Shown in pieces: positions 14,407 to 18,517 of a DNA stretch of 39,977 bases. Position numbers and translations under genes: made by a program. Each line of letters starts with the position of its first letter. The stretch's first letter is position 1. This DNA comes from Lachnospiraceae bacterium. Lineage in GTDB: Bacteria; Bacillota; Clostridia; Lachnospirales; Lachnospiraceae. The stretch is from assembly GCA_017434885.1 (NCBI GenBank), contig JAFSGE010000024.1, positions 1 through 39,977 on the forward strand, in the 5' to 3' direction. A model generated the notes under the pieces. It did no database searches. It saw only the letters and a list, made by a program, of their open reading frames with translations, and had not been told where the DNA came from.

Positions 14407-14598
14407 TTATAAAGCTTCAATCTTTGCCATCAGGTCATTGATGTCCATGCCGTGAACCATAGCAGCTTCCTCAAGGCTCTCTGCCTGTGCGGAAGGACAT
14501 CCCAGACAGTGCATACCTGCTTCCATAAGAACAGGTGCAACCGCAGGATTGGTTCTTAAGATTTCACCGATTGTCATGTCTTTGGTAATCTGTGCCAT
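14407..14598 (-). CDS. DUF1858 (hybrid-cluster-associated redox disulfide) protein
   Basis: 63 residues starting [21 protein letters not shown] lies just upstream of the ATG at 14598, so this start is preferred over an upstream one. It contains the DUF1858 pattern: [28 protein letters not shown], with a CxxC pair, followed by an [21 protein letters not shown] helix. The domain is thought to carry a redox-active disulfide, and its exact role is unknown. It is transcribed divergently from the pyruvate formate-lyase locus and may share its anaerobic regulation. Confidence 0.9.
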
Positions 14599-14735
14599 TT
14601 GTAACAACCTCCTTCTATCTGTCAAATAAAATTTCTATTTCTGAATATAAAATTCATAGCAACATTTAGTATAATACTTTCCCCTCTTTCTGGCAAGATT
14701 ATTTACTTTGTATATAAAAAAGTACATTCCCTTGC

Positions 14736-14764: not shown

Positions 14765-14836
14765 AAAAGTACGGTATCAGCATAGTTTTTATGCTCAAAT
14801 AAATCTAACAAAATAATATTAGGAGGCTTACACAAA

Positions 14837-16876
14837 ATGAGACCAGAATGGAACAATTTTGTAGCAGGTAAGTGGGAAAATGAAGTTAACGTACGTGACT
14901 TCATTCAGAAAAACTACCATCCTTATGATGGTGATGATTCCTTCTTAGCAGAAGCTACACAGGACACCAAAGACTTATGGCAGATGGTACTTGAATTACA
15001 GAAAAAGGAACGTGAAGCAGGCGGCGTTCTTGATATGGATACCAAGGTTGTATCTACTATCACATCCCATGGCCCCGGCTACCTTGACAAATCCAAAGAG
15101 AAAATCGTTGGATTCCAGACAGATAAGCCCTTCAAGCGTTCTCTTCAGCCTTACGGCGGTATCAGAATGGCAGAAAAAGCTTGTTCTGACAACGGATACG
15201 AAGTAGATCCCGAAATCAGCGAATTTTTCTCTACACACAGAAAAACACACAACGCAGGTTGTTTCGATGCTTACAATGCTGAAATGAGAGCTTGTCGTTC
15301 TTCTCACATTATTACAGGTCTTCCAGATGCTTACGGACGTGGACGTATCATCGGTGACTACAGAAGAGTAGCTCTTTACGGTATTGACTTCTTAATCGAA
15401 GACAAGCTTGCGCAGAAAGATTCCACAGGACGTGTAATGACAGATGATGTTATCCGTCTTCGTGAAGAAATCTCCGAGCAGATCGTTGCTCTTAAGATGA
15501 TGAAAGAAATGGCAGCTTCCTACGGATGCGATATTTCCAAGCCCGCTACCAACGTAAAAGAAGCTATTCAGGCTACTTACTTCGGTTACTTATGTGCTGT
15601 TAAGGAACAGAACGGTGCTGCTATGTCCCTCGGACGTACATCTACATTCCTTGACTGCTACGCAGAAAGAGACTTAGCTAACGGTACATTTACAGAATCT
15701 GAAATTCAGGAATTTGTTGACCACTTCATCATGAAATTACGTTGCATCAAGTTTGCGCGTACACCTGAATACAACCAGATTTTCGCAGGTGACCCTGTAT
15801 GGGTAACAGAATCCTTAGCAGGTGTTGGTGTTGACGGACGTCACTTAGTAACAAAGATGAGCTTCCGTTACTTACACACATTAACAAACTTAGGAGCAAG
15901 CCCTGAACCCAACTTAACAGTTCTCTGGTCTCCCAGACTTCCTGAGAACTTCAAGAGATACTGTGCTAAGTTGTCCATCTTAACATCTTCCATCCAGTAC
16001 GAAAACGATGAACTTATGAGACCTGACCACAGTGATGACTACGGTATCGCATGTTGTGTATCTTCCATGGTTATCGGTAAGGAAATGCAGTTCTTCGGAG
16101 CACGTGCTAACCTTGCTAAGTGCTTACTTTACGCATTAAACGGTGGTGTTGACGAAGTTACCAAGAAACAGGTTGGTCCTAAATATCGTCCTGTTGAAGG
16201 TGATGTTCTTGATTATGATGATGTTATGGATAAATTCTCAGACATGATTGAATGGCAGGCAGACGTATATGTAAATACTCTGAACATCATTCATTATATG
16301 CATGACAAATACTGCTATGAAAGAGCTGAAATGGCACTTCATGACAGAGATGTTAAGAGATACTTCGCAACAGGTGTTGCAGGTCTTTCTATCGTAGCTG
16401 ACTCCTTATCTGCTATCAAGTATGCTAAGGTTGAAGTTATCAGAGATGAAGACGGCGTTATCGTTGACTTCAAGACAACAGGTGACTTCCCTAAATACGG
16501 TAACGATGATGACCGCGTTGACAGCATCGCTCAGGCAATCGTTACTAAGTTTATGACAGCTATCAGAAGACATCATACTTACAGAAACGGTATTCCTACA
16601 ACATCCATTCTTACCATTACTTCTAACGTAACATACGGTAAGGCTACAGGTAATACACCTGACGGACGTAAGAAAGGACAGCCTTTCGCACCCGGTGCTA
16701 ACCCGATGCACGGACGTGATACTCACGGTGCAGTAGCATCCTTATCTTCCGTTTCCAAGCTTCCTTTCAAGGATGCACAGGATGGTATTTCCAATACCTT
16801 TACTATCATCCCCGGAGCTCTTGGTAAAGAAGATCAGATCTTCGCAGGCGATATTGAAATTGATTTAAACAAATAA
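14837..16876 (+). CDS. pflB: Pyruvate formate-lyase catalytic protein lacking the glycyl-radical domain
   Basis: 679 residues, against about 740-760 for ordinary PFL. It aligns with Escherichia coli PflB from the N-terminus ([20 protein letters not shown]) through the active-site Cys pair ([12 protein letters not shown], Cys406-Cys407) and [10 protein letters not shown] to [37 protein letters not shown] and [19 protein letters not shown]. It then ends [12 protein letters not shown] with TAA, in the linker where PflB continues into its radical domain. No Gly radical motif (RVSGYA) is present in this protein. It converts pyruvate and CoA to acetyl-CoA and formate, and must receive the radical domain from the protein encoded at 17144. 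Codon use is strongly biased, as for an abundant protein. Confidence 0.96.
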
Positions 16877-16917
16877 TTGACTTAACACATTACATTCATC
16901 TGTAAGGAGGACACACA

Positions 16918-17121
16918 ATGGACCAGAAAGCTATGATTGATGACCTTGTAAAAATGCTGGATTCCGGCATGGCAATGGGCGTAGGACATGTAAATGTAGA
17001 CACTAATGCCTCAAGTGACAAATCAAAAGAAGTTCAAACCATGGGATGCTCGGATTGTTCCAGAACTCCATTGGCATGTAGCGTTCCTACCTTACAGGAT
17101 GGATTAGACGACTTTCATTAA
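16918..17121 (+). CDS. Small protein resembling the start of the glycyl-radical domain, with Cys-rich tail
   Basis: 67 residues (MDQKAMIDDLVKMLDSG...) with a strong AAGGAGG ribosome binding site, encoded between the two parts of the split PFL. Residues 8-28 align without gaps to residues 10-30 of the downstream glycyl-radical protein, with 9 of 21 identical (Asp8, Leu10, Val11, Leu14, Asp15, Gly21, His24, Asn26, Val27). After that it diverges: no RVSGYA motif, but a tail with Cys44-x2-Cys47 and Cys54 (MGCSDCSRTPLACSVP). It therefore cannot carry the radical. It may dock at the same surface of the catalytic protein as a regulator, placeholder or redox/metal sensor; this is inference. It is not a frameshift product, since it has its own start signals. 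Confidence 0.88.
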   Translation: MDQKAMIDDLVKMLDSGMAMGVGHVNVDTNASSDKSKEVQTMGCSDCSRTPLACSVPTLQDGLDDFH

Positions 17122-17143
17122 ATATTATAGGAGGTAGATTACC

Positions 17144-17389
17144 ATGGCAGCAGTAAGTGCAGCACAGGTTGACAACCTGGTATCATTATTAGATGGTTAT
17201 TCAGTTAAAGGTGGACATCACCTTAACGTTAACGTATTAAACAGAGAAACACTTTTAGATGCTCAGCAGCATCCTGAAAACTATCCTCAGCTTACAATCC
17301 GTGTTTCCGGATACGCTGTTAACTTCATCAAGTTAACACCTGAACAGCAGGCTGACGTTATTTCCCGTACATTCCATGAATCCATCTAA
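17144..17389 (+). CDS. grcA: Stand-alone glycyl-radical domain of pyruvate formate-lyase (GrcA/YfiD-like)
   Basis: 81 residues with an AGGAGG ribosome binding site. From residue 17 it is collinear with the last 65 residues of E. coli PflB and with GrcA (YfiD): [61 protein letters not shown]. Gly56 in RVSGYA is the predicted radical site, to be activated by the radical SAM enzyme encoded downstream. The catalytic protein in the same operon lacks this domain, so here it should be an obligatory subunit rather than a spare part as GrcA is in E. coli. The GrcA name reflects similarity only; the N-terminal part of E. coli GrcA is absent. Confidence 0.93.
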
Positions 17390-17424: not shown

Positions 17425-17457
17425 AAACCTCCGGTGGTTTTTCTGCCGGAGGTTTTT
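17425..17457 (+). terminator. Terminator between the glycyl-radical gene and pflA
   Basis: AAACCTCCGG (17425-17434) pairs perfectly with CCGGAGGTTT (17446-17455), followed by T residues. The pflA ATG is 20 bases beyond, so partial read-through would set a low level of activating enzyme relative to its substrate proteins. Confidence 0.88.
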
Positions 17458-17477: not shown

Positions 17478-18236
17478 ATGCAAGGCAGAATTCATTCACT
17501 AGAAAGCTTTGGTACCGTAGACGGTCCCGGCACCAGATTTGTTGTATTTGTGCAAGGATGCCCCATGCGATGTGCCTATTGCCACAACCCTGATACCTGG
17601 GCAATGAACGGCGGAACCTTGATGGAGCCGGAATATGTTTATGAACAGTACAAAAGAAACGAAAGTTTTTACAAAAACGGTGGTATTACCGTTACCGGCG
17701 GCGAACCTCTTATGCAGATTGATTTTTTAATTGATTTGTTTACACTTGCCAAAAAGGACAATGTGCATACCTGCATCGACAGCTCCGGTATTGCTTACAA
17801 CCCGGACAACGCTCCCTTAATTGCAAAATTAGATAAGCTTATGGAGCTCACGGACCTTGTTATGCTTGATATTAAGCACATTGACCCTGCAAAGCACAAA
17901 GAACTTACCATGCAACCTAATGAACCGATTTTGGCCTTTGCAGCGTATTTAAACGAAAAGCAAGTTGATATGTGGATTCGCCACGTTGTTGTACCCGGCA
18001 TTACCGATGACGACAAGTATTTATTTGACTTAGGTTACTTCATCGGACAATTTACCAATTTGAAAGCACTGGATGTACTTCCTTATCATACGATGGGAGA
18101 AAACAAATACGAAAAGCTTGGCATTTCTTACAAGCTTGCCGGAGTTCCTCCCATGGACAAAAATCTGATTCCGGCAAAAAAAGAAGTCATTCTCAACGGA
18201 ATCAGAAAACGCAGAAGTGAAATAAATTCTCAATAA
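17478..18236 (+). CDS. pflA: Pyruvate formate-lyase activating enzyme (radical SAM)
   Basis: 252 residues, normal length. The [4Fe-4S] site is Cys28-x3-Cys32-x2-Cys35 (GCPMRCAYCHNPDTW), followed by the SAM-binding GGITVTGGEPLMQ and the C-terminal MGENKYEKLGISYKLAGVPP typical of PFL activases. It cleaves SAM to a 5'-deoxyadenosyl radical that abstracts hydrogen from the glycine, here presumably Gly56 of the separate 81-residue protein. GGAAGGGAG precedes the ATG. It follows a terminator hairpin and may be read through from the pfl promoter. Confidence 0.96.
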   Translation: MQGRIHSLESFGTVDGPGTRFVVFVQGCPMRCAYCHNPDTWAMNGGTLMEPEYVYEQYKRNESFYKNGGITVTGGEPLMQIDFLIDLFTLAKKDNVHTCIDSSGIAYNPDNAPLIAKLDKLMELTDLVMLDIKHIDPAKHKELTMQPNEPILAFAAYLNEKQVDMWIRHVVVPGITDDDKYLFDLGYFIGQFTNLKALDVLPYHTMGENKYEKLGISYKLAGVPPMDKNLIPAKKEVILNGIRKRRSEINSQ

Positions 18237-18346: not shown

Positions 18347-18517
18347 ATGGCATACGTTATTAGTGACGCTTGTATTTCTTGTGGAGCATGTGCAGGACAG
18401 TGCCCTGTTGGCGCTATTTCTGAAGGCGACGGCAAGTTTGAAATCGATGCAGCTACATGCATCAGCTGTGGTTCCTGTGCAGGTGGATGCCCCGTTGGAG
18501 CTATCTCCGAAGAATAG
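18347..18517 (+). CDS. 2[4Fe-4S] clostridial-type ferredoxin
   Basis: 56 residues beginning MAYVISDACISCGACAGQCP. Two CxxCxxCxxxCP motifs (CISCGACAGQCP and CISCGSCAGGCP) bind two [4Fe-4S] clusters, the length and spacing of classical clostridial ferredoxin. TAAGGAGG precedes the ATG. It is a low-potential electron carrier. Its place directly after pflA suggests it could reduce the activase cluster, but it has its own promoter and probably serves many partners. Confidence 0.96.
   Translation: MAYVISDACISCGACAGQCPVGAISEGDGKFEIDAATCISCGSCAGGCPVGAISEE

Follow-up and report, generated by a model that had tools for sequence, protein, structure and literature searches.

Pyruvate formate-lyase (PFL) belongs to the core fermentation enzymes of gut anaerobes and is the standard example of a single-chain glycyl radical enzyme: its activase, PflA, generates a radical on a glycine residue, which then passes to the second of the two active-site cysteines. 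Here we describe a locus of a Lachnospiraceae bacterium (assembly GCA_017434885.1, contig JAFSGE010000024.1, positions 1–39,977 of the forward strand; this whole stretch of 39,977 nucleotides is referred to as the window) in which the catalytic body and the glycyl-radical domain of PFL are encoded by separate genes. An operon-like set on the plus strand comprises, in this order, the genes of the PFL body, a 67-residue middle protein, an 81-residue radical subunit (grcA3) and the activase (pflA). Judged from sequence comparisons, these genes very probably encode a multi-chain PFL.

Most glycyl radical enzymes, PFL included, were described as single-polypeptide homodimers in 2025 (PMC12590467). 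The locus is nevertheless comparable with several described systems. The first is PflB (TIGR01255; Escherichia coli PFL, structure 1h16), which it resembles in the body sequence, the active-site cysteine pair and the type of activase, and from which it differs in the absence of an in-chain C-terminal radical domain, in a split-specific acidic end box and in an added cysteine-bearing module (Cys module). The second is GrcA3 (NF038360), a model of which the 81-residue protein is a member, just above the cut-off; the name, kind and scores of that model point neither to a partner protein on which it depends nor to a third chain. The third is YfiD/GrcA (TIGR04365; structure 6owr), likewise a radical domain that stands alone and serves a PFL body (PMC8683613). 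YfiD, however, repairs an otherwise complete PFL and has an N-terminal extension of about 60 residues, whereas the split body described here never carries a radical domain; the closest artificial analogue is the laboratory pair tPFL(1-695) and truncYfiD (PMC8683613). Finally, benzylsuccinate synthase (BSS) and 4-hydroxyphenylacetate decarboxylase (HPAD) also have small Cys-bearing partner subunits, but these hold a [4Fe-4S] cluster and serve enzymes with a radical domain of their own (PMC12590467), in contrast to the middle protein, with its 2–3 cysteines and apparent radical-domain ancestry. Among the titles listed by searches of the open-licence PMC literature, none dealt with a naturally occurring split PFL or with a small Cys protein that accompanies PFL, and no paper came up under the names GrcA3 or GrcA2.

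The catalytic body and the radical subunit

The body gene (14837..16876; ribosome-binding site AGGAGG at 14821..14826) encodes 679 residues. Its product scored 1104.5 bits against TIGR01255 (cut-off 994.2), 720 bits against PF02901 and 980.7 bits against E. coli PFL 1h16. The active-site pair Cys406-Cys407 (16052..16057) is in place and was invariant in 39/39 aligned bodies, but the match to TIGR01255 spans profile positions 2–664 of 744, and the same-chain glycyl-radical domain expected of that family is lacking. The frame closes with a TAA codon (16874-16876), immediately preceded by an acidic C-terminal box (16841..16873). A GDL-like box of this kind, defined by a pattern picked after the data were seen, stands before the stop or the tail in 45 of 49 diverse split bodies and in none of 60 fused PFLs.

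The missing domain is encoded by grcA3 (17144..17389; ribosome-binding site AGGAGG at 17129..17134). The 81-residue product barely exceeded the cut-off of NF038360 (158.8 versus 158 bits) and scored 82.4 bits against PF01228, of which it covered positions 51–106. It does not belong to TIGR04365, the GrcA/YfiD spare part (102.5 versus 170 bits, restricted to profile positions 65–126 of 126). The presumed radical glycine, Gly56 (17309..17311), lies in the motif RVSGYA, and R53, V54, S55, G56, Y57 and A58 were all invariant in the alignment of radical subunits. Residue 669 of the body corresponds to residue 681 of E. coli PFL, while residues 10–80 of GrcA3 align with E. coli residues 683–758 (phmmer). 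Since the body reaches residue 681 and the radical subunit continues from 683, the two genes represent one enzyme cleanly cut at the border of the radical domain.

The initial annotation of this DNA had thus correctly recognised a PFL that retains Cys406-Cys407 and stops before the radical domain, as well as the RVSGYA protein two genes further on and the AGGAGG-type site in front of each of the three genes; the stretch matched by the small protein is about 75 residues long, rather than the 65 stated there. It had described a two-part enzyme. The split itself stands, but the 67-residue middle gene, apparently an integral third piece, was overlooked.

In the window's genome (3.10 Mb in 58 contigs, 94.5% complete) we detected a single PFL-like body and no full-length PFL; a search for a second pflB had been proposed with the annotation. 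As the split is also common in the family (see below), the radical subunit is very probably obligatory, as had been suggested. The classical spare-part arrangement, in which the body would be a leftover and GrcA3 would repair another, intact PFL, agrees with the name of the GrcA3 model (autonomous glycyl radical cofactor) and with the co-occurrence of split and fused PFLs in 3 of 118 PFL-bearing genomes of the family. We consider it very improbable, since no fused PFL was seen in the other 51 of the 54 split genomes (at E 1e-150) nor in the genome of the window, and the body is under strong purifying selection. The ratio of nonsynonymous to synonymous substitution rates (dN/dS) between the window and its relatives was 0.04–0.06 for the body and 0.04–0.15 across body, middle gene and grcA3 (five pairs, two of which repeat the values of two others; dS of the middle gene reached 2.3 in one pair).

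A second, unlinked GrcA3 gene was identified on contig 39 (14581-14820; L255:4082-4321; 159.3 bits to NF038360), and two stand-alone copies occur in 31 of 37 genomes of the genus, so that it is plausible, on this genomic evidence, that the radical subunit is exchangeable. Upstream of the second gene lies one for a Crp-like regulator, and downstream one for a major facilitator superfamily transporter of lactate or oxalate/formate type; the scores of both stayed below the curated cut-offs.

Distribution of the split arrangement

Among 37 genomes of the genus, 33 carry the split PFL, one has a fused PFL only, one (G007) is cut by a contig end, and in two, G012 (82% complete) and G036 (59% complete), no PFL body was seen. 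In a few of the 33 the body extends over two contigs and the split was read from the ends of the matches. The open reading frames could be read directly in 28 of 30 genus loci (L033 and L034 run into contig ends), and all 28 showed the stop of the body followed by a middle gene. A GrcA3 frame passed the filter in 27 of these loci; in the remaining one (L023) GrcA3 lies within a 135-residue frame.

A survey of Lachnospiraceae for the same arrangement, also proposed earlier, was carried out on 150 genomes of the family. PFL was present in 118 of them: 54 were split and 65 fused, with three counted in both groups, and two (G125, G096) could not be assigned. These tallies were counted by hand, and the identity of the family as Lachnospiraceae was deduced from the records of 80 of the 303 loci, a few of which are named otherwise (one Muribaculaceae, one Bacillus, several Bacillota or Clostridium). 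Nearly half of the sampled PFL-bearing genomes of the family appear to run a multi-chain PFL with a separable radical part. In the same sample, G096 and G058 contain the middle gene, with the PFL body cut or not seen. Named records carrying the middle gene include Parablautia muri, P. intestinalis and Acetatifactor muris.

In the class sample (246 genomes, 134 with PFL) at least eight genomes outside the family are split (L294–L301). In the phylum sample (199 genomes, 63 with PFL) the split was found only in the window's own genome, and two matches were cut. One of the loci outside the family, L298 (G613:C3), has its split body frame broken by a stop codon, which reflects decay or an assembly error.

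The body and grcA3 of the window happen to share a reading frame (starts at 14837 and 17144), as would be expected of a single gene interrupted by false stops from sequencing or assembly. Such an artefact has a negligible probability and is ruled out by the recurrence of the split in the genus and the family; the initial annotation, too, had argued against a frameshift or sequencing error. Moreover, a conserved gene in another frame separates the two, each gene has its own ribosome-binding site and the spacing varies. The gene order varies as well: in L223 the body gene and grcA3 are separated by pflA, and in L295 the middle gene follows grcA3.

The middle protein and the cysteine tail

The middle gene (16918..17121; ribosome-binding site AAGGAGG at 16904..16910) encodes 67 residues, whose two halves resemble different proteins. 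Residues 2–34 (16921..17019) aligned with the radical-domain helix and strand over 33 columns (hhalign probability 95.4, E 1.7e-8), with a score of 45.5 versus at most 16.1 in 100 column shuffles. The C-terminal half, with a cysteine pair and a PTL motif, aligned with the tail of those split bodies that lack a middle gene (probability 96.6, E 6.2e-10; score 48.8 versus up to 22.2 in shuffles). The tail alignment was built from the 13 Cys tails (of 23) that have the longer motif, and the E-value applies to this selected set; tails of the CACCEP type and others were excluded. No resemblance was seen between the radical domain and the Cys tail. The middle protein thus looks like a chimera in which a radical-domain seat is joined to a Cys tail, the glycine loop being absent. 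All six middle proteins compared with the GrcA3 model also matched its N-terminus weakly (E 7.1e-6 for L233, 0.0016–0.0061 for four, and 0.08 for that of the window).

The cysteines of the window's middle protein are Cys44, Cys47 and Cys54 (17047..17079); across 20 diverse middle proteins, Cys47 shows no variation, and the conservation of Cys54 is at least 90%. The middle protein has no model of its own in Pfam or NCBIfam: a Pfam scan of 45 middle proteins yielded no family, only one chance-level match in each of two of them (E 0.25 and 0.31). A sequence search of the PDB gave no match at E up to 10, and one scan of viral contigs revealed no relatives. Weak matches to the first ~45 positions of the middle-protein profile were observed in unlinked frames of 79–114 residues (L247–L254, e.g. 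G420:C4:5821-5958 and G309:C68:90250-90390), in which a motif filter found nothing.

The middle protein is small, contains cysteines and is encoded together with a glycyl radical enzyme, and it might therefore be an Fe-S or metal-binding accessory subunit of the BSS or HPAD type, stabilizing the body or tuning radical transfer. Fe-S subunits of this type are expected to have four cluster-binding cysteines per chain and a HiPIP-like fold; as to the fold, the model of the middle protein is confident for a single helix. All 25 diverse middle proteins have 2–3 cysteines, as do 22 of the 23 Cys tails (one has 4), which would not suffice for a [4Fe-4S] cluster in each chain; the homology of the N-terminal half to the radical domain and the outcome of the Pfam scan speak against this origin too. 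Further accessory subunits of glycyl radical enzymes may be unrecognized (PMC12590467), but for the middle protein we consider this explanation distinctly unlikely.

The occurrence of the middle gene follows that of the split. It was detected in 34 of the 54 split genomes of the family (E up to 1e-7) and in none of the 62 fused-only genomes (at E 0.001 or better), an association with a Fisher p of 1.3e-15 when phylogeny is ignored. Of the 20 split genomes without a middle gene, 19 encode a body with a longer tail containing at least two cysteines. Among all split bodies read, 114 (many of them close relatives) were labelled as having the middle gene only, 23 the Cys tail only, none both, and three neither by pattern, although two of these three (L142, L299) do have a middle gene. 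Outside the family, the Cys module was present as tail or middle gene in all eight split loci fetched. It may thus be encoded in cis or in trans, and in G038 the middle gene and the body are even found on separate contigs.

Proposed function of the separate parts

From the sequence relationships, we regard it as probable that PFL is naturally divided into several chains here and that GrcA3 is charged by PflA while bound to the body; the Cys module, in cis or in trans, may hold or shield the seat of the radical domain or assist in loading. GrcA3 would dock on the body so that its helix and strand occupy the seat of the missing C-terminal domain. PflA would then generate the radical on Gly56, from which it would pass to Cys407, that is, between two chains. 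If oxygen cut the subunit at Gly56, only the 81-residue protein would have to be replaced, either from the operon or from the second, unlinked copy. The helix-strand half of the middle protein may bind the same groove, with the Cys pair placed where the glycine loop would be, and the protein may hold or protect the open site until GrcA3 is loaded, or aid the loading; in loci without it, the Cys tail of the body would do the same job. Separate pieces could let the cell renew the oxygen-sensitive part without remaking the whole enzyme. The spare-part idea thereby becomes testable where it would be the normal state, in what would be a natural system for intermolecular radical transfer, and attention is drawn to a small protein without a Pfam or NCBIfam model that travels with split PFLs.

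Two narrower proposals concern the Cys module. That the middle protein is a dummy radical domain with a placeholder or loading role is conceivable, with the odds somewhat against it. More tentatively still, the middle protein and the Cys tail of the body may be two forms of a redox-sensitive dummy domain, acting as a disulphide safety cap. When the radical subunit is missing or cut by oxygen, the helix-strand half of the middle protein would fill the open barrel groove and the Cys pair would form a reversible disulphide with or near Cys406-407, preserving the large enzyme and flagging the seat as free; upon the return of anoxia the cap would be reduced, displaced by fresh GrcA3, and the latter charged by PflA. 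PFL would then be a plug-and-play enzyme with a safety cap.

Alternatively, the Cys module could be not a plug but a tag recognized by PflA, or a signal for quality control, that brings the activase to the unloaded body. This would leave the second copy of the helix-strand seat in the middle protein unexplained, and classic fused PFLs are activated by PflA without any Cys module. On the other hand, the module, in its cis or its trans form, is located where the body ends, and binding and activation in E. coli are governed by sequences outside the radical loop (PMC8683613). We consider a tag rather unlikely.

The probable reading, with the Cys module serving the seat or loading, can be compared with the E. 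coli experiments. When truncated after residue 695, the E. coli body shows full activity following activation, yet it is poorly activated and its binding of YfiD is too weak to detect; residues 696–733 were taken by the authors as the recognition element (PMC8683613). This is the stretch that the middle protein appears to half-mimic, and the analogy suggests that a third part may help for that reason. We infer that the Cys module, whose trans form duplicates the strand, is positioned so that it could replace the lost stretch or keep the seat.

Several observations weigh against this reading. When YfiD was deprived of its N-terminal extension, it activated the cut E. coli body 5.4-fold better than the whole protein did (PMC8683613); GrcA3 lacks such an extension, so that body and GrcA3 might manage without a third part. 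One split locus, L223 (G166), has neither a middle gene nor a Cys tail, the middle proteins of L230 and L231 end right past the first cysteine of the conserved pair, and several tails are devoid of the IPNL/PTL part. The only PFL of the genus member G024 is fused; it is located on a 3.45-kb contig and is closest to fused PFLs of other genera. Exchange between tail and middle gene is supported by about 10 independent contrasts on all branches of the tree and by 5 on the starred ones, the latter with a sign test p of 0.06, and the tail and middle-gene labels used for this were exclusive by construction. The AlphaFold models were too weak for any docking argument: the body model had a pLDDT of 48, although a structure search with it matched E. 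coli PFL and other glycyl radical enzymes, and in the model of the middle protein (mean pLDDT 55) helix 3–19 alone was confident. The low-confidence remainder would fit a peptide that folds on its partner, and equally any short peptide.

Phylogeny and putative re-fusions

All split bodies in our sets fall into one supported clade (SH-aLRT 99 in the later tree; 100 in the first tree, which lacked 28 fused loci). On the tree of 127 bodies the fused/split label needs three changes. Two fused groups, (i) L257, L259, L192, L185 and L186, and (ii) L190 and L260, are nested within the split clade, with radical domains that by eye are GrcA3-like. One split followed by two re-fusions is the simplest story, although the change counts themselves give no direction and the trees are quick ones with SH-aLRT support only. 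The rows are a selection: 60 fused loci, made up of the 30 that scored best in each of the family and class searches (70 fused matches were listed by the former), together with L257, L259 and L260 (GrcA3 matches in long frames), four genus loci and 11 of L066–L145; L142 was labelled by hand as bearing the middle gene. In L190/L258 (G132) and L260 (G428) a Cys-rich insert is present exactly at the joint between body and radical domain, and these loci are candidates for re-fusions that retained the Cys module.

Relationship to deposited structures

The best sequence matches of the body in the PDB were 38la and 38lb, both named 'Formate acetyltransferase'. In the tree, 38lb is placed inside the split clade (support 97), and 38la beside it, in a position between the clade and a fused group that the tree does not settle. 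Two cysteines are visible just past the core of 38lb, and neither entry is among the 34 chains matched by the radical subunit. Split-type bodies, natural or as cut constructs, have thus probably already been solved. Neither entry appeared in the structure-search listings for the body model (library to 8 April 2026), and both are perhaps newer than that library. The radical protein is known to NCBI curators, and the split itself may not be new: its novelty is lowered by the existing GrcA3 model and by the split-type appearance of these two entries.

Neighbouring genes and viral homologues

The activase gene, pflA (17478..18236), encodes a radical SAM enzyme of 252 residues (TIGR02493, 290.2 bits; cut-off 231.75). 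Between grcA3 and pflA we noted by eye a terminator-like hairpin (17428..17457; 7-bp GC stem, 11-nt loop, T5), which the terminator scan did not list because its loop is above the limit of that scan; promoter and terminator scans of the locus gave no more sites than were found in shuffled sequences. The divergent neighbour of the body gene (14407-14625, minus strand) encodes a DUF1858 protein ('hybrid cluster protein-associated redox disulfide domain', TIGR03980, 101 bits). Directly past pflA lies the gene of a small 4Fe-4S ferredoxin (18347-18517, plus strand; NF058577, 88.9 bits), a possible electron donor for the activase.

Stand-alone GrcA3-like proteins are also encoded on 14 IMG/VR contigs (L303–L316), five of which are 100–333 kb long. 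The gene is located between nrdD and nrdG in L305 (4004-4237), and in L310 (3998-4231) it follows nrdD and a gene that by eye is radical-SAM-like. The GrcA3-like gene beside nrdD is of the PFL type, and NrdD covers its own model at nearly full length; phages are perhaps bringing spare PFL parts.

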